Virus record (IMG/VR): IMGVR_UViG_3300030406_003158
Span: 1 to 30,430 of that record
Strand: one strand, 5' to 3'
Length of the DNA stretch: 30,430 bases
From: a virus
Part shown: in pieces, positions 18,051 to 26,008 of the stretch
How the letters are laid out: every line of letters starts with the position of its first letter
How positions within the stretch are numbered: the stretch's first letter is position 1
Position numbers and translations under genes: made by a program
The notes under the pieces: model-generated
Databases searched by the model: none
Seen by the model: the letters and a program-made list of their open reading frames with translations, nothing else
Told to the model about the DNA's origin: nothing

Positions 18051-18464
18051 TTAAATTTTAATTATTCGTTTTTCTAATTCTTTAATATCTTTTGTATTTG
18101 TTGGGTTTTTATGCACGTTTACAAATATTGAATCTTCAACAGCATATATTACTCTTTTTGATCCTGGATTTGATATTGTATAACAAGGTGCAACATGTTC
18201 TATTTTTTCACCGTTATTATTTATTAACACACGACCAGTCATTAAAAACCATACATGTAAATGCTTGTGTGTTGCTCCAACAACTATTTGACCTGCTTTC
18301 ATATTCATTTGCCTTATATAAATACCATCAGCAAATTTATGAGTTATAGGTATTTCATCTACGACAGGTATGTTTTTACCATCACCGTAAAAACCTTTTT
18401 TATCGTTATTTTGTATAATCAACTGTTGTAATTGATCTACACTTGGTACTTCTTTTAATTTCAT
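18051..18464 (-). CDS. cupin-fold protein
   Basis: This 137-residue protein has a single cupin domain. Motif 1 is GATHKHLHVWFLMTGRV (H66, H68, H70, G77), with the usual Glu of HxHx3-4Ex6G replaced. Motif 2 is ISNPGSKR leading to FVNVHKN (P100, G101, H118, N120). It therefore keeps at least three possible metal-binding His but lacks the standard acidic ligand. It has no signal peptide. Related small cupins occur among structural genes of marine phages, where they are thought to be virion-associated rather than metabolic; this is recollection. It lies between the C-terminal muzzle gene and the ejection protein with gaps of five bases on each side, so it is clearly in the late operon. Its catalytic status is unknown. 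Confidence 0.72.
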   Translation of the reverse strand: MKLKEVPSVDQLQQLIIQNNDKKGFYGDGKNIPVVDEIPITHKFADGIYIRQMNMKAGQIVVGATHKHLHVWFLMTGRVLINNNGEKIEHVAPCYTISNPGSKRVIYAVEDSIFVNVHKNPTNTKDIKELEKRIIKI

Positions 18465-18469
18465 ATAAT

Positions 18470-19843
18470 TTATTTTGAAGATAATAAAACTTCAGATCCT
18501 ACAGAAAATAACTCTTGTTTAGCGCTACTAGCAGAGGCTGTAGGTCCCCAATATTGCATTGTAACATCAACATAATAACCTTTAACACCTGTTGAATTAA
18601 AATGTTTGTTATCGTTAAAAAAGTCTGTAGCTTTATTTCTTATTTCACTAAAGTACTTATCTTCTTTCTTTATAAAACCTATAGCAGTAGTACCATCTAA
18701 AGTACCTTCTTTAGGTATTTTATAAGCTTCTAATACAAGATCAGTTGGTGCTGTTGATCCACTTGCTTTCATATAATCCATTTCCCAACCTGTTGTTCCT
18801 TCGTAGTTTATAGTTGCAAATGTTTTTGTAGTACCTGGTTGCTGATTAAAAACAAATTTAATATAAGATGGATCTGCAAACGTAGCTCCATAAAAAGTAC
18901 CTTTAGCTACACTAGTATCATAATGTTTATATAAATCAACATTATTGTATGTGTAAAATTCATTTTTTAAACTAAGACCAAATGTTGGTTTGTAAGTAAA
19001 AAACGAAGTCCAACCTTGAACTCTATCATCATAGCATAATGTTCTATAACCAGTAGCAGGATCTTGAATACCTGGAACACCACTGTTATCAATTGCTATT
19101 TTACCACCATCTATGCTACTACCTTGTAAAGATATAACATATTTACCTTTTTGCTCATCATAAGCCCCATATATCTTATCACACAAAACTAAGTGATCTT
19201 TAAAAAAGTCTTTCATACCAGCCGCAGATATAGGTGTTAAACCTTGTCCACCACCTTTACCAGCAGATAATCTCATAACAACACCTCTGTTTTTATCAGC
19301 AAAATATTTTCTATTACCAAACACTGCAAAACTTTCAGGGTTTTTGCTTATACCGTATTTACCAGTATATGGTGTTATTTGACTTATAACTCTTTTACCA
19401 GCTGTACTTAAACCAACGCCTTCAGCTGTAAATATTATATCTTTATCTATTAAAGCTCTACTAACTTTATTTTCTTGAAATATATTTAGATTTGTTTCTT
19501 CAGCGTATAATTTTTGTATACTACCATGTGATATATCAACAGCTCTACTAATTTCTTCACCAACAGGAAACTGGTTTAACTCATTAAAATCTGTTCTTGC
19601 ATTAAATATACCACTGTATATCATAGCGTTTGGTCTTTTGTGCGATCTATATTTTTCATTAGTAATATATGCTTTAGCACCATAATCCATTTGCTTTCCG
19701 TTAAACTCACCTTTAATTCTATTTTCTTCAATATGATATACTCCAGGTTTGTGAGTACCTGGACTACCACCATTAGTGTAGTTTAATTGACCACCTGCTA
19801 TTACTATCGAGTTAAAATATGATATTTCTATTGATACTGCCAT
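18470..19843 (-). CDS. C-terminal part of tail stabilization ('muzzle') protein, encoded as a separate gene
   Basis: This 457-residue protein contains segments that in crAss-like and related marine podoviruses form the second half of the large tail muzzle/stabilization protein (P22 gp10-like). They are EISYFNSIVI, ENRIKGEFNGKQMDYGAKAY, MIYSGIFNARTDFNELNQF, DISHGSIQKLYAEETNL, YGISKNPESFAVFGNRKYFA and RLSAGKGGGQGLTPIS. Together they belong to a beta-propeller-like tail hub. In relatives as I remember them these follow directly, in one chain, the FETxPxE..DIFYE region. That region here lies in the upstream 1286-aa gene. The start has its own A/T-rich leader, 17 bases after the upstream stop, and the two frames differ, so a simple read-through would not join them. 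The last 100 residues are beta-rich (YYVDVTMQYWGPTAS). The product probably co-assembles with the upstream one at the tail tip. Confidence 0.72.
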   Translation of the reverse strand: MAVSIEISYFNSIVIAGGQLNYTNGGSPGTHKPGVYHIEENRIKGEFNGKQMDYGAKAYITNEKYRSHKRPNAMIYSGIFNARTDFNELNQFPVGEEISRAVDISHGSIQKLYAEETNLNIFQENKVSRALIDKDIIFTAEGVGLSTAGKRVISQITPYTGKYGISKNPESFAVFGNRKYFADKNRGVVMRLSAGKGGGQGLTPISAAGMKDFFKDHLVLCDKIYGAYDEQKGKYVISLQGSSIDGGKIAIDNSGVPGIQDPATGYRTLCYDDRVQGWTSFFTYKPTFGLSLKNEFYTYNNVDLYKHYDTSVAKGTFYGATFADPSYIKFVFNQQPGTTKTFATINYEGTTGWEMDYMKASGSTAPTDLVLEAYKIPKEGTLDGTTAIGFIKKEDKYFSEIRNKATDFFNDNKHFNSTGVKGYYVDVTMQYWGPTASASSAKQELFSVGSEVLLSSK

Positions 19844-19860
19844 TTATCTATTTTTTATTA

Positions 19861-22800
19861 TTAACATGGACATAATTGAGATGCTGATCCAACAACACCG
19901 TTATTAACTTCATATTCAGCTCCATCACCATCAAAAGCAAACCTACCTGATGTACCAGCAAATAATCTATTTTGTTGTAATGAATCTGTGTATATTATAT
20001 TGTTAGTATATATATTAGAACTAGTAGGTGCATTAGAACCAGATCCTTGAACAGCATAGTAAGTTACAGCATTAGCACCACCACATTTAATAGTACAAGC
20101 AGAACCTGCACTACCACCTGTAATAGCCCAACCTTGTATTGATGTTGATCTCATTATAGTTATATTAAACGTGCTACTAGCTGTTAAACCACCGTTATCA
20201 CTTATATTAAGCGTAACTGACTTAGTAATTGTATTACCTGGGAATAATGAATTTTCATTATAATTAGCATTTGTTTTTAACCTTATATTTCCAGCTGGAC
20301 TTTGATCTAATTCTAAACCAACTATATTTTGACCACCTATTGGTTCTGTTACGTTACCTGGTATTATAAAGTTTTTATTAGAGGATGTTTTTGCAGAACC
20401 ATTTGTAGCTGCAACACTTCCTATAATAGTACCTGAAGAAGCACCTTCTACAACAGGTCCACTACCACTTGCTATGCTAGGATTTGAGTTTGTAACATTA
20501 ACAGAAACATTACCAGTAGTAGATAAACCACCAGTTTGAGTTACTTTTAATGTTAATGTAAATGTATCTCTACCTGAATCATTTCTAAAAACAAAAGTAT
20601 CAGCTGTTCTTAATTGCCAGTTTGAACCAGACAGTATTGCGTTAAAAGCTGTAGTGTAACTATTATTATTACCATCAACAGCATTTAAAACTTGAACATT
20701 AGTTATAGCTGCGGTTGTGATAACAGCCGTTACATTTCCTATAAACGTATTTATAGCTGAATTTTCTGTAAAACTACTATTACTTATTGATATGTTACTA
20801 GGACCAGCAGATGGAGATACTTCTATTATATCGTTTAAGTCTTTTATTAAACCACCTGTTGCTGTTTCATAAAATATATCTATTTTTGACTCAACAGGTT
20901 TTGTTTCAAAAACCATTAAACCACTTGAACTGTATTGTGGACTTTCAGCTACACCTATGTTTGGATCACCAGGTAAACCAAAAGGTAAATCTTGAGCTTC
21001 ATTATTTACGTCAGGAACATTAACATCAATGTTATCAATACCAACAGGTTCTACTTTTAAATTAGGTAATTCTGCAACTAACGGATTAGACTCGTTGTTG
21101 TAAACAAATTTATATATTCTTCTTTTTGCTTTTAGTTCTGTACTACCACCTAAATCACCTTCAGATCCTTGAAATAAACCTTGCTCTACAGCTGTACCTA
21201 TACTTAATACTTTTATATATTCTTGACCAGCCGCCTGATGAACTGACGTTGAAGTTCCAGCTGCATCAATTGGTATTACTTTAGGCCATAATTCTATTTC
21301 AGAACCAGCTAAACCTTCTCTATCAAAGTCATATTCTTTTTCAACATCTCTAGGTACTTTATTTATATTATCACCATGTAATGTTAACCATGATCTTCCA
21401 GCACTACCAGTGTTTACTTGACCATTTATTATTTGTTTGTTTGAAGTACCTTGTTGCGCTGTTCTTGTTGACGATGTATTACTCCAAGAGTTTGCTGTAT
21501 AATTTGTGTATATATTATAATAATCTTGTTCTGTTTGTTTTACAACTATTCTCCAAGAATACCAACCATTTGGATTACTTACTTGGTTATATGCTTTAGC
21601 TGCTTGCACTATATAATCATCTCTAAAAGTTATCTCTAGTGCTTTACCTATAGTTTCTTGATTAGTACTCCAACTGTAATTACCACCAAACTTAGCTTGT
21701 TTGTTTTCTATATCAGCTGGCAATGTAAAAGTATCTGACACATCTGCATTATCTGTATTAGTAGATAATATTACAGGTGATTTTCTACCGTATTTATCAG
21801 ACAAAACAACACCAACCTTGTAAGTTCTTCTTTGTTTTAAATTGTGGTGTTTGTAAACAGTTTTATTATGTTGAAAGTAACCACTGTTTTTGTTATATTC
21901 ATTTTCACTTTTTATTGTACTACCAATTGTATAATCAATACCTTCTCTATTATTTGTATCTAGCGGTAAATCATAGTTTTCTGTTATATTACCATAAACT
22001 AATCTGTTACCTACTATTTCTTGAGCTTTTGCTCTAACAGGTGTTTTATCACTTGTTCTTAATAATTGTTTTTCTGGTAATACTTTATATGGTTTTTCTG
22101 ATCTATATATATACTCTACGTGTTGTCTCCAGTATACCTTTTTCCAAACTAGTGGTGCACCATCAGCAACACTTATACCTTTATTCATTGATATTTGAAC
22201 CTTGTTTGATCCGTTTAATGTAATACCAGTTACATATAAATAACCTTCACTACCAACTACAGCTGTTGATGTATTATCGTGGATCCAACCTGTACCTACA
22301 AAGTTTATAAACCTTAATTCAGCATTATCAGCTCCAATACTAGTATCATTAGCAACTAAATTACCATTAATATCTTCAAGTGTAATAGAGCTATTTCCTG
22401 TGTTTATACTTCTTATTCTTACCTCTTGAGTTGCACCGATACTACCAGATATAACTCTCATACCAGTAGAAAGATCAGATATTGATGGCGAAATATTATC
22501 TATAACAAAAGTGTTACCAGCTTGACCAGCACCGTTTACTTTAGCAGATACTATATGATCTACTACTAAATCTAAATTTGATGTAGAGTTAGCGTTATTT
22601 AAAGCACCATCAACAGTAACTGTATTGTCATCTATTGATTGATAATATGATCCAAAAACAGCACTAGCGTCATCTAATTGTATTTCATCAATTAACTTAA
22701 CAGCTAAACCATCTGATTCTTTTAATAATATTTCTACTTTATCTATACTAAAATCATTAGCGTATGTTGAACCTGGATTTACACCACCAGCAAACTCATC

Positions 22801-23721
22801 TAGTTTTGGTAATGGTATACGCATAGTAATTTTATTATATGCGTTTTGCATTATATCTAATGTTGTTTTTCTAACAACATCAAGTGTGCTTATAGGAACG
22901 TCAGGTTCGTTTGCAGTAGAGTTTCTTTGATCTCTTGTGTGTTTTAGTTGACCATCATTTAACGGTTTAAAAACACTTTGTGTAAATGGTGATATAATAG
23001 AGTATTGACCATTATCATATTTATATCTATAAGCAAAACGTAAAAAACGTTCTTGCATAAAATCTGAGTCAACATTAGCATCTCTTACCAATGTAGTACC
23101 ATCAGCATTGTTTCCGTGTGGAACACCTGAATTACTTTGATTTAACAAAGGACACTCATATGGAGCTACTTTAGCAACTGATATTTTATCTTCACAATTA
23201 TAATAACCAGCACCTGCATAGTTTGGGTGTTGACTATCTGCTTTGTTTATGTCAATATATCTTGGCTGGTTATAATTATCTGTCCAATACAAATAATTAT
23301 CAATAACGTTTACACCTGTTATTAAAAATTTTTTATTAAAATTTAAAAATAAACCACTTACTAATATTTGAGGCTCTTGATCACCATTTTTCATGATAAT
23401 AGCCATTTTTTTATTAGTTGCAGCTCTAGGCATTGATATAATATCAGCTTCTGACTCTTCGCTGTAGTCTGTAGTAAACCAAAATATTCTATTATTAGCT
23501 ACATCTACATAATAACCAATACACTCATCACCAACATTAGCTAAAGCTGTACTATACGCTAATTTATTTCCTAAAACATTTTCAACAGCTCCAACATCAT
23601 CATCTTCACTATTAGATACTTGAATATTTTGACCTTCCCTGTACTCACCTCTAGGCACAAGTCTCTCGTCAAGGTCTTGGTTCATCTTACCTCTAACAAA
23701 AACTTTTTTTATTTCCGGCAT
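19861..23721 (-). CDS. tail stabilization ('muzzle') protein N-terminal part with Ig-like and Cys-flanked C-terminal extension
   Basis: This 1286-residue protein opens with the family signature FVRGKMNQDLDERLVPRGEY, then NIQVSNSEDDDVGAVENVLG. This is the N-terminus of the crAss-like muzzle / P22 gp10-like tail protein. The beta-propeller continues with RIFWFTTDY, KFLITGVNVIDNYLYWTDN, RFLRFAYRYKYDNGQYS, YRSEKPYKVLPEKQLLRTSD, VGVVLSDKYGRKSPVIL and WYSWRIVVKQTEQDYYNIY. The hub part ends with FETKPVESKIDIFYE near residue 940. From about 975 to 1190 two cadherin/Ig-like repeats follow (SSFTENSAINTFIGNVTAVI; VVEGASSGTIIGSVAATNGS). The last 90 residues form a Cys-containing domain (WAITGGSAGSACTIKCGG ... 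SASQLCPC) with a YYAVQ..SNIYTNNIIYTDS pattern, like receptor-binding tips of Bacteroidota phages. The protein should sit at the tail end and contact the host surface. Confidence 0.8.
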   Translation of the reverse strand: MPEIKKVFVRGKMNQDLDERLVPRGEYREGQNIQVSNSEDDDVGAVENVLGNKLAYSTALANVGDECIGYYVDVANNRIFWFTTDYSEESEADIISMPRAATNKKMAIIMKNGDQEPQILVSGLFLNFNKKFLITGVNVIDNYLYWTDNYNQPRYIDINKADSQHPNYAGAGYYNCEDKISVAKVAPYECPLLNQSNSGVPHGNNADGTTLVRDANVDSDFMQERFLRFAYRYKYDNGQYSIISPFTQSVFKPLNDGQLKHTRDQRNSTANEPDVPISTLDVVRKTTLDIMQNAYNKITMRIPLPKLDEFAGGVNPGSTYANDFSIDKVEILLKESDGLAVKLIDEIQLDDASAVFGSYYQSIDDNTVTVDGALNNANSTSNLDLVVDHIVSAKVNGAGQAGNTFVIDNISPSISDLSTGMRVISGSIGATQEVRIRSINTGNSSITLEDINGNLVANDTSIGADNAELRFINFVGTGWIHDNTSTAVVGSEGYLYVTGITLNGSNKVQISMNKGISVADGAPLVWKKVYWRQHVEYIYRSEKPYKVLPEKQLLRTSDKTPVRAKAQEIVGNRLVYGNITENYDLPLDTNNREGIDYTIGSTIKSENEYNKNSGYFQHNKTVYKHHNLKQRRTYKVGVVLSDKYGRKSPVILSTNTDNADVSDTFTLPADIENKQAKFGGNYSWSTNQETIGKALEITFRDDYIVQAAKAYNQVSNPNGWYSWRIVVKQTEQDYYNIYTNYTANSWSNTSSTRTAQQGTSNKQIINGQVNTGSAGRSWLTLHGDNINKVPRDVEKEYDFDREGLAGSEIELWPKVIPIDAAGTSTSVHQAAGQEYIKVLSIGTAVEQGLFQGSEGDLGGSTELKAKRRIYKFVYNNESNPLVAELPNLKVEPVGIDNIDVNVPDVNNEAQDLPFGLPGDPNIGVAESPQYSSSGLMVFETKPVESKIDIFYETATGGLIKDLNDIIEVSPSAGPSNISISNSSFTENSAINTFIGNVTAVITTAAITNVQVLNAVDGNNNSYTTAFNAILSGSNWQLRTADTFVFRNDSGRDTFTLTLKVTQTGGLSTTGNVSVNVTNSNPSIASGSGPVVEGASSGTIIGSVAATNGSAKTSSNKNFIIPGNVTEPIGGQNIVGLELDQSPAGNIRLKTNANYNENSLFPGNTITKSVTLNISDNGGLTASSTFNITIMRSTSIQGWAITGGSAGSACTIKCGGANAVTYYAVQGSGSNAPTSSNIYTNNIIYTDSLQQNRLFAGTSGRFAFDGDGAEYEVNNGVVGSASQLCPC

Positions 23722-23725
23722 TTAA

Positions 23726-24901
23726 TTAGTGTTTTATTTGTTTAGACTTACCTCTCATTACTTGAGTAAGTTCTCCAATTTTTAATTGAGAAAGTCTATG
23801 TTTAGCGTTTCTCATAGCAGCTCTTCTTTCTTTTTTGTATCTATTTATAATATACTCAGGGACAAGAGCTCTAGTTGATAGTATATTATATACTAATGAT
23901 TTATACATACCTTCTTCAGCAAATTTATGTATCTTCATTTCTTTATCAGTGCCTAAACCATCTGATATGTATTTAAGTGTTATTATTTTGTTATTTATAT
24001 TAGAACTAAAACCAAACTTACCATTTAATTCATCTATAGTAAACGTTCCGTTTTCTTGAGCAACTTCAGGATCTAAACCATATCTTAAACCTGGGTTAGC
24101 TATTCTCTCTGAGTGATAATTTTGATTATAAAAATAATCGTCATTATTTACAGTTCCACTTAAATTACTTATAGGAAAATCTTCAAATCTATTTATAGTT
24201 ACAGAGTCGACTGTTATAGTATCTCCTTCATCAGCAAATATATAATTATAATCACTGTCTTGTAATATAGATTCACTAGGTCTTGATGTAAATCTAGCAG
24301 GATAAATTATATGTTCAACACCAGCTGTATCTATCCATGATAATCTAACATAACTTATATAGTCTTGTGGCATTGGAATACTTAAACTTGGTCCAACTTC
24401 TATTTCTTGTATTTTTTCTACTCTACCAATATCATAGTTAAACTCTTGTATACATCTTTTAGCATGAAATAATACTTCAGATCTTTTAACGGTATTTATA
24501 AGTTTTCCATCACCAACATAAGCTATCATAAAGTTATTTACTAAATCTTTTAAAGATATGTATCTATAATCACCTAATACTTGTGTTAGTAATTTAGCTA
24601 TTACAATATCAGTTGTTAATAATTCACCAGCATTTGTTAATGTAGTATCTACATTGTTTGCTGTTATTTTAGTAAATGTTATAGTTTCAGCCGATGCATC
24701 ATATACATAATTATCTCTTGGTTGTTCTTCTCCATTTAATGTTACTATAAAATCAGCTTCTGCCGCTGGAGTATGGGTAAAATCTGTAGGAAACGTATAT
24801 ACAGCTCTAGGTATACTACCATTAGCTGTGCCTTCTGATCCTAACCATTTATGTTGGTTATTATAATATTGAAATGCTGTTGTGCTTCCTAGTAATCCCA
24901 T
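23726..24901 (-). CDS. head-tail ring / tail tubular protein
   Basis: This 391-residue protein has a beta-rich N-terminus (FPTDFTHTPAAEADFIVTLN, DNYVYDASAETITFTK) followed by a helical adaptor core: LKDLVNNFMIAYVGDGKLIN, RSEVLFHAKRCIQEFNYDIG, IEVGPSLSIPMPQDYISYVR, and a C-terminal EEGMYKSLVYNILSTRALVP, YIINRYKKERRAAMRNAKHR. This arrangement matches the adaptor/ring proteins of crAss-like phages, which join portal and tail and are comparable in role to P22 gp4 and T7 gp11. It lies four bases before the muzzle gene and just after another ring protein. The identification rests on remembered family patterns and gene order. Confidence 0.72.
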   Translation of the reverse strand: MGLLGSTTAFQYYNNQHKWLGSEGTANGSIPRAVYTFPTDFTHTPAAEADFIVTLNGEEQPRDNYVYDASAETITFTKITANNVDTTLTNAGELLTTDIVIAKLLTQVLGDYRYISLKDLVNNFMIAYVGDGKLINTVKRSEVLFHAKRCIQEFNYDIGRVEKIQEIEVGPSLSIPMPQDYISYVRLSWIDTAGVEHIIYPARFTSRPSESILQDSDYNYIFADEGDTITVDSVTINRFEDFPISNLSGTVNNDDYFYNQNYHSERIANPGLRYGLDPEVAQENGTFTIDELNGKFGFSSNINNKIITLKYISDGLGTDKEMKIHKFAEEGMYKSLVYNILSTRALVPEYIINRYKKERRAAMRNAKHRLSQLKIGELTQVMRGKSKQIKH

Positions 24902-24903
24902 AT

Positions 24904-25959
24904 TTATTGTTGTTTAATGTTTGCGTTTGATTGTATTGATTGTGAAGCAAGCTGTGTTATTTCTCTGTCTTTAATTATGACACCTGCAAAAGCTAATATT
25001 TGCATTATTAACATAGGCTCTTCTGACGGATGTAATTCAAAATCTGTTGATCCTTGAGTTGTATTTTCAAATATATCATCAGCTGTAACGGTATAAACTA
25101 TATTAGAGTTACCACTTAAAGTACTACCGCCACCTTCATTAGCTAGTCCTGTAGGAAAAGTTATTGTATCACCAACTGCAAAACCAGTTCCAGGTGTTAC
25201 AACAACTAATGACGAAGGTAAGTTGTTACTGTTTGCTATAGTTAATCTAAAAGTACCACCTTTAAAATCAAGTAAATAAGTATCATCGTTATAACCACTA
25301 CCAAGAGTTGTATAACCGGTTGTTGTAGCTAAAGTTTTACCAGTAACTAAACCTGTTGCAGAGTAAACATTTGAATCGTATGTTTGTGTTCCGTAAGTTG
25401 CATTTAATGTAAAACCAAATCTAGGATCTACAGGTACTTTAATATAATCTAGTACCGCGTTTGCAATACTTGTTGGTTTAACTTGTATTGATGTTGCGCC
25501 TGCAGAAGTTGTTGTTTTGTAATATATCGGATAATCAGTACTTGGAGCTGTTAGTGGAGATGATTGTAGATATGCTAAGTCATGCTTATCAACTAGCTCA
25601 AAAGGTAATGTTCTAGTACTATTTGTTAATTCTATTATTTTATAAATGTCACTAGGTAAAGCAACAATACCAGTTGATACTGCTGGGTTACCAGATGTTT
25701 GCATAGTTAAATTACTTGTTTTATAAAATACATCAATTTTTTCTTTTATTTTACTTGGCATATCAGCGTAACCTAAGTTGGTTCTACCAACAGTGTCTAA
25801 ATTAGACATTTTATTATATTCAACAAAAGCAAGATCTAATAAGTTTAATTGAGCTTGCACAGCTATTTTATTGAACTCATCTGGAGTCATAAAACCTCTT
25901 TGTTCTTTGTTTAATATTGATAAAACAGATTTATATACTTTATTTACGTTTATTGCCAT
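24904..25959 (-). CDS. head-tail connector ring protein with beta-domain insert
   Basis: From ATG 25959 the product is 351 residues. The N-terminal helices (VNKVYKSVLSILNKEQRGFM, FNKIAVQAQLNLLDLAFVEY) and middle strand region (GIVALPSDIYKIIELT; VKPTSIANAVLDYIKVPVDP) fit a phage connector/ring subunit. The C-terminal helix has FELHPSEEPMLIMQILAFAG. Near residues 255-305 there is a Gly-rich beta insert with PGTGFAVGDTITFPTG, a small domain often repeated in phage surface proteins. The frame is open upstream to a GTG at 25986, but that start would lie inside a strong hairpin. The ATG has the usual A-rich leader and gives MAINVNKVYK, so it is chosen. It is followed at two bases by the second ring protein. 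Confidence 0.7.
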   Translation of the reverse strand: MAINVNKVYKSVLSILNKEQRGFMTPDEFNKIAVQAQLNLLDLAFVEYNKMSNLDTVGRTNLGYADMPSKIKEKIDVFYKTSNLTMQTSGNPAVSTGIVALPSDIYKIIELTNSTRTLPFELVDKHDLAYLQSSPLTAPSTDYPIYYKTTTSAGATSIQVKPTSIANAVLDYIKVPVDPRFGFTLNATYGTQTYDSNVYSATGLVTGKTLATTTGYTTLGSGYNDDTYLLDFKGGTFRLTIANSNNLPSSLVVVTPGTGFAVGDTITFPTGLANEGGGSTLSGNSNIVYTVTADDIFENTTQGSTDFELHPSEEPMLIMQILAFAGVIIKDREITQLASQSIQSNANIKQQ

Positions 25960-25971
25960 AATTTCTTTTTT

Positions 25972-26008
25972 TATAGTAGTGGTCACCTATAGAGATGACC
26001 ACTCTATA
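25972..26008 (-). promoter_or_regulatory. leader hairpin with two alternative pairings before the ring-protein gene
   Basis: The gap between the 254-aa gene (stop 26017) and the ring-protein ATG (25959) holds an inverted repeat. On the + strand TATAGTAGTGGTCA (25972-25985) pairs with TGACCACTCTATA (25996-26008) as a 13-bp stem with one bulged base and a 10-base loop. A second, shorter 7-bp pairing, TATAGAG (25988-25994) with CTCTATA (26002-26008), uses the same right arm, so the two cannot coexist. It is not followed by a U-tract in the direction of transcription, so it is not an ordinary terminator. It could be an RNA-processing site or a control of translation of the next gene. Confidence 0.55.

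Follow-up and report, generated by a model that had tools for sequence, protein, structure and literature searches.

Two adjacent genes in the stretch of viral DNA analyzed here (30,430 nucleotides [nt], all of the given part of IMG/VR record IMGVR_UViG_3300030406_003158; referred to as the window) probably encode a two-chain muzzle whose first chain ends in a tail, a putative adhesin that would be displayed at the distal tip. That the 1286-amino-acid (aa) product (N chain) and the 457-aa product (C chain) together represent one crAss-type muzzle was confirmed by profile matches and predicted structures; these models put the break on the host-facing side, within the insertion between strands G and H of IG2. 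The published accounts consulted describe the muzzle as one chain and as both gatekeeper and conserved hallmark of crAss-like phages; a search of open-access papers, which is less than the full literature, yielded no account of a split form.

Both muzzle open reading frames (ORFs) are on the minus strand and, because of their 17-nt spacing, in different frames (Table 1), in agreement with the original prediction that the rest of the muzzle would be found 17 bases on in another frame. The gene order around the pair was as in Cellulophaga phage phi38:1. The N-terminal hub signatures initially assigned to the N chain were confirmed in part: GKMNQDLDERLVPRGEYREG is indeed at residue 11, whereas FETKPVESKIDIFYE, at residue 938, is the final muzzle strand ahead of the tail rather than an N-terminal hub signature. 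The later motifs attributed to the second gene were found in the 457-aa protein, and homologues with a single chain share them in their second half. Upstream of the muzzle, window positions 24904 to 25986 and 23726 to 24901 probably encode ring proteins (360 and 391 aa, respectively), the phi38:1 counterparts of which are shorter (232 and 283 aa). Directly after the C chain, positions 18051 to 18464 encode a protein of 137 aa with similarity to PHROGs for short tail fibres (phrog_12032, 2.6e-24); in a relative (L013), this slot is occupied by a different protein.

Table 1. Features of the muzzle gene pair (positions in the window) and the basis for each assignment
Feature	Positions	Strand	Basis
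Whole N-chain gene, 1286 aa	19861..23721	-	ORF
N residues 1-260: first propeller blades / ring-joining start (PF25731 N-terminal part)	22942..23721	-	Pfam, PHROGs, L008 model
N residues 261-953: IG1, IG2 strands up to strand G, crass fold	20863..22941	-	L008 alignment to 7QOL/7QOK; domain names from PMC10172136
FETKPVESKIDIFYE, strand G of IG2, final strand of the muzzle part (gp44 about 929-939)	20866..20910	-	Alignment; strand assignment inferred
Cadherin-like repeat 1, residues about 968-1085	20467..20820	-	CELSR1 profile match, L008 865-1086 fold; borders approximate
Cadherin-like repeat 2, residues about 1086-1194	20140..20466	-	Profile and L008 fold; borders approximate
Terminal domain, CxxxC ... 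CxC, most divergent part of N chain	19864..20139	-	Sequence comparison
Intergenic gap, 17 nt, A/T-rich, shifts reading frame	19844..19860	.	Sequence
Whole C-chain gene, 457 aa	18470..19843	-	ORF
C residues 1-65: remaining G-H insertion and IG2 strand H	19649..19843	-	Assignment inferred; mostly low confidence when folded alone
C residues 66-457: remainder of blade 3, blades 4-7 including the gate, end of ring-joining domain	18473..19648	-	Z 18.2, PF25729

The N chain matched PF25731 (crAss_MUZ; 3e-11) and the C chain matched PF25729 (crAss_MUZ_C; 4.6e-10), both above the curated Pfam cut-offs. In PHROGs, both chains matched phrog_14478, the N chain with profile positions 1 to 223 as its best stretch (3.5e-50) and the C chain over positions 919 to 1205 (4.1e-37). 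Searches of PDB sequences with phi38:1 and with the C-chain profile gave no match; the link to muzzle structures runs via predicted models only. The C chain, folded with 62 relatives (pLDDT 76.6), aligned over residues 66 to 454 with residues 1024 to 1371 of crAss001 gp44 (7QOL chain P; Z 18.2, 313 residues, rmsd 3.4), and the next phage nozzle after gp44 scored Z 13.9. The fold of the N chain was taken from a close relative, L008 (1188 aa; pLDDT 78.6), standing in for the 1286-aa chain of the window; residues 53 to 857 of the L008 model aligned with gp44 residues 54 to 934 (7QOL/7QOK; Z 11.6, 503 residues, rmsd 6.9). The propeller, the IG domains, and the crass fold were found in this way, directly in the C chain of the window and via the L008 model for the N chain. 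The family was aligned to gp44 by hmmsearch; global hhalign gave no usable alignment.

The muzzle protein gp44 comprises a seven-bladed propeller, IG1, and IG2, the insertions of IG2 (E-F, residues 453 to 904, and G-H, residues 940 to 1012) making up the crass fold; IG2 ends at residue 1021, and the gate sits in blade 4 (PMC10172136). The structure-aligned halves are complementary on gp44, and the uncovered stretch from 934 to 1024 spans the G-H insertion. Because the C chain corresponds to gp44 residues 1024 to 1371 in the published numbering, blade 4 and the gate fall on the C chain. When folded alone, N residues 1 to 54 (in the L008 model) and most of C residues 1 to 62 were of low confidence, and in gp44 these chain starts adjoin parts that are now on the partner chain. 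Low confidence at these starts is what would be expected if each chain needs its partner, other reasons being possible.

In the two-chain model, the N chain would supply the first blades, IG1, the larger part of IG2, and the crass fold. The C chain would supply what remains of IG2 and of blade 3, then blades 4 to 7, which include the ejection gate, and finally the last part of the ring-joining domain. Each propeller would be completed by one N and one C chain, and six such pairs would form the hexameric tail tip. With the chain broken inside the IG2 G-H insertion, the new C-terminus of the N chain would be left free at the distal tip, where it would display two cadherin-like repeats and a variable Cys domain in six copies for putative host binding. 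An extended module would be hard to hold in a loop with both ends tethered, and a chain end combined with a new subunit would free it. Co-assembly and this stoichiometry are proposed, as are a host-binding role and a break caused by the adhesin.

Both parts are carried on one chain in phi38:1 (1324 aa), Calle_1 (1324 aa), Gundel_1 (1386 aa), and elemo (1493 aa). Aligned to single chains, the muzzle part of the window's N chain ends with ...FETKPVESKIDIFYETATGGLIKDLND and the C chain begins with MAVSIEISYFNS, these two sequences being contiguous there. Likewise, in the single-chain loci L062 to L065 and L297 to L310, ...ESSTSGLIRDLH... continues directly into ...KEIAYFNTFILAGGG.... Single-chain relatives thus run straight across the junction, which is clean, and the added C-terminal module is located precisely where the chain is interrupted. 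Pfam, PHROGs, and structure agree with the proposal that the genes are two halves of a muzzle that homologues carry as one chain. Of the two outcomes that would have refuted the proposal, neither occurred: relatives are not always split (65 of 326 loci are single-chain), and the half absent from the N chain is matched by the 457-aa protein both in sequence and in structure.

Split and single-chain forms were surveyed by IMG/VR scans with six queries, up to 80 loci being taken per query, to which isolates were added, yielding 326 classifiable loci among those listed; the counts describe this sample rather than frequencies, and some contigs occur in more than one locus. The break of the window (site 1) was labelled in 182 loci, a second break (site 2) in 79, and one chain in 65. 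One site-1 label, that of Panino (L003), was rejected: its break lies inside a conserved stretch that continues in another frame, with no added module, most likely reflecting a frameshift or sequence error. This left 181 site-1 loci, and at 90% identity the representatives numbered 135 (site 1), 57 (site 2), and 51 (single chain). The spacing from the N to the C gene at site 1 had a median of 30 nt, with frame offsets of 62, 61, and 58 loci. The two-gene arrangement is neither chance nor assembly error, given 181 loci with the same split and even frame offsets. The muzzle is encoded by two genes in the window and in 181 listed loci altogether; a single chain is a trait of the known members and not what defines the family, and our claim is for a two-chain muzzle. 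A tail of at least 252 aa was present on all measurable site-1 chains (147/147); a different measuring pattern, which starts its count at another point, gave a minimum of 244 aa on 125 chains.

At site 2 (Cellulophaga phage phi19:3, Podoviridae isolate ctfjg026, and 77 further loci), the break lies between C-chain residues about 242 and 267 and is followed by 98 to 1259 aa; in many cases entire genes, as much as 3.8 kb, separate the two parts. These 79 loci include L007:7010-12580, L005:7001-13021, and L053:8001-16501. The small end piece at site 2 (241 to 275 aa in the loci inspected) corresponds to PHROG families of unknown function, and phrog_18548 matches the corresponding region of the window's C chain. 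Muzzles encoded by three genes were found in L214:1934-11096 (IMG/VR) and L378:1587-10278 (a Bacteroidetes MAG), in which the breaks after pieces one and two fall within the first part of the propeller, each of these pieces having an extension of about 470 to 1240 aa. These cases show that breaking at loops beside an added module is a repeated pattern, the chain usually ending where the module was attached. An added module does not force a break, because L210 to L212 carry about 1000 aa inside one unbroken chain at site 2 (between C1 and C2) and some single-chain relatives have extensions of 418 to 1587 aa at the natural C-terminus.

Several loci deviated in their details. ORFs between the site-2 halves of L219:4206-7079, L248:5474-7989, and L254:5460-7989 matched the model of the window-type tail, which may thus have turned into a gene of its own there; L248 and L254 have three similar-looking genes in a row. 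In L032:8001-14463, a 394-aa gene between the N and C chains resembles the remaining tail, either a further break or a frameshift. Muzzle genes were also present on contigs of cultured Flavobacteriia, possibly as integrated phages: L390 (Aquimarina longa, on an 837-kb contig), L387 (A. algiphila), and L388 (Allomuricauda nanhaiensis).

A tree of 46 rows and 745 columns was rooted on phi38:1 and the site-2 groups; with gp44, a very long branch, the root fell inside the split clade, so the phi38:1-type group was used. The site-1 split arises at the base of a clade of 37 rows (99/99). The tree indicates an old break common to the whole clade, not a gain in this phage. Within the site-1 clade, single chains recur in two groups of the whole tree. 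The first (L062 to L065 and L297 to L310) is nested beside the split loci L313 and L314 (100/99), a placement recovered by separate trees of the N half and the C half (97 each). For the second (L136, L141, and L143), nesting in the whole tree and the C-half tree is not supported by the N-half tree, and its reading as another re-joining is uncertain. Forcing the split rows into one clade without the re-joined groups was rejected (delta lnL 226). The tail of the split sister L313, which was outside the set from which the window-type tail model was built, matched that model (6.8e-15), and no tail was found in the re-joined chains of the first group; loss of the tail with re-joining is thus the simplest reading for this group. 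Overall, on the tree the site-1 split arises once and is lost at least once, by scarless re-joining into chains that lack the tail. The crass domain had median lengths of 439 and about 300 aa in the re-joined groups, compared with 141 aa in split chains, which suggests a trade-off, seen in two groups, with the split sisters of the first group also at 302 to 342 aa.

Because split and tail coincide at every measurable site-1 locus, their cause and order are inseparable at this site. A less favored but still plausible history is that the split came first, by neutral fission in a tolerant loop, and that the free end acquired its cadherin tail afterwards, with the chains co-assembling all the same. 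Breaks at several other loops of the same propeller indicate that cuts are tolerated, and tails vary widely among lineages, the window's tail model missing many deep site-1 lineages. Such a history is at odds with the lack of any tailless chain among the 147 measurable at site 1 and with a re-joined group that is nested in the clade and has no tail.

The nature of the tail was assessed from profiles and folds. The clade tail profile matched CELSR1 (4.9e-13), and residues 865 to 1086 of the L008 model gave Z values of about 10.5 to 11.5 against many cadherins; the two cadherin/Ig-like repeats foreseen before the end are thus specifically cadherin-like. PF00028 matched the L071 tail slightly below the cut-off (1.7e-5), and the window tail by itself had no Pfam match above the cut-off. 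The Cys-flanked terminal domain that had been noticed does carry its CxxxC and CxC pair; four Cys in two pairs (window positions 19864 to 20139) are likewise present in L008, L009, and L012, possibly as a metal site or two disulfides. An origin of the tail from the C-terminal extension of the sister group L149 to L162 was rejected, as those extensions do not match the tail model. Identity between the window and L008 was 75% in the first half of the C chain and 64 to 67% in conserved N-chain regions, compared with 41 to 43% in the repeats and 34% in the terminal domain. The terminal domain of the window is closest to that of L012 (56%), whereas the core is closest to L008. This pattern of divergence fits a module under host-driven change, perhaps exchanged. 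Judged by position, fold type, and variability, the tail is most likely the host-binding tip. It is unlikely, though conceivable, that it serves instead as a spacer, either structural or for penetrating a capsule: repeats of the cadherin type are generic stalks and any ligand would be hypothetical, while the distal terminal domain is more variable than the stalk and ranks the relatives differently than the core does.

Two further alternatives concern the C chain. Propeller folds are common, and the 457-aa protein could be a separate tail protein that shares the fold without completing the muzzle; this is very improbable given that it aligns specifically with the half that the N chain lacks, up to gp44 residue 1371, and has gp44 as its top match (Z 18.2 versus 13.9), and given an N chain without a second copy of the C half, and re-joined relatives with both halves in one chain and no scar. 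Production of the two ORFs as one protein by frameshifting or read-through, which a short gap (17 nt here) and a conserved gene order might suggest, is hardly credible, because the evenly spread frame offsets (62/61/58 over 181 loci) rule it out as a common mechanism, entire genes lie between the halves in L024, L101, and site-2 loci (there up to 3.8 kb), and the C chain has a conserved start (M..IE..YFN). By eye, the small ORFs between the muzzle genes of the former two (L024:11859-12395 and L101:8495-8974) are nucleotidyltransferase-like.

If the two-chain muzzle is real, the predicted receptor-facing part and the gate are separate subunits. Two chains are usual in a large, mostly environmental clade, and annotation pipelines can miss half of the muzzle. 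The nested re-joined lineage offers a natural experiment on how a multidomain machine gains a binding module and keeps its fold. More broadly, the muzzle propeller may be a general cut-and-graft scaffold, with at least four loops at which the chain is cut, a host-facing module is added, and the rest is resupplied as a subunit, reversibly through scarless re-joining; phages could then change their tail-tip adhesin and leave the ejection gate, which has its own gene, as it is. We consider this reading as apt to be wrong as right. The loops in question would be two inside the first blades (as in L214 and L378), that between strands G and H of IG2, and another in a late blade.

Among known systems, crAss001 gp44 (PDB 7QOL/7QOK; PF25731 and PF25729) shares the domain content and arrangement (propeller, IG1, IG2, crass fold, and ring-joining domain) and has a gene likewise positioned after ring proteins, but it is one 1371-aa chain without a cadherin tail, whereas the muzzle of the window is broken in the IG2 G-H insertion and its N part is tailed. 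The closest cultured comparison, phi38:1 gp097 (Pervagoviridae), is syntenic and alignable over both halves; it is one 1324-aa chain with no cadherin tail, in contrast to the two chains with a tail in the window. The nozzle proteins T7 gp12 and P22 gp10 match the window C chain in their propeller and ring-joining domain but are more distant (Z about 10 to 12.6) and are single chains without the crass fold. A two-gene muzzle in which an extension ends the first chain is also present in phi19:3 (gp120 and gp121) and in ctfjg026, but these are broken elsewhere, later in the propeller (C-chain residues about 242 to 267).
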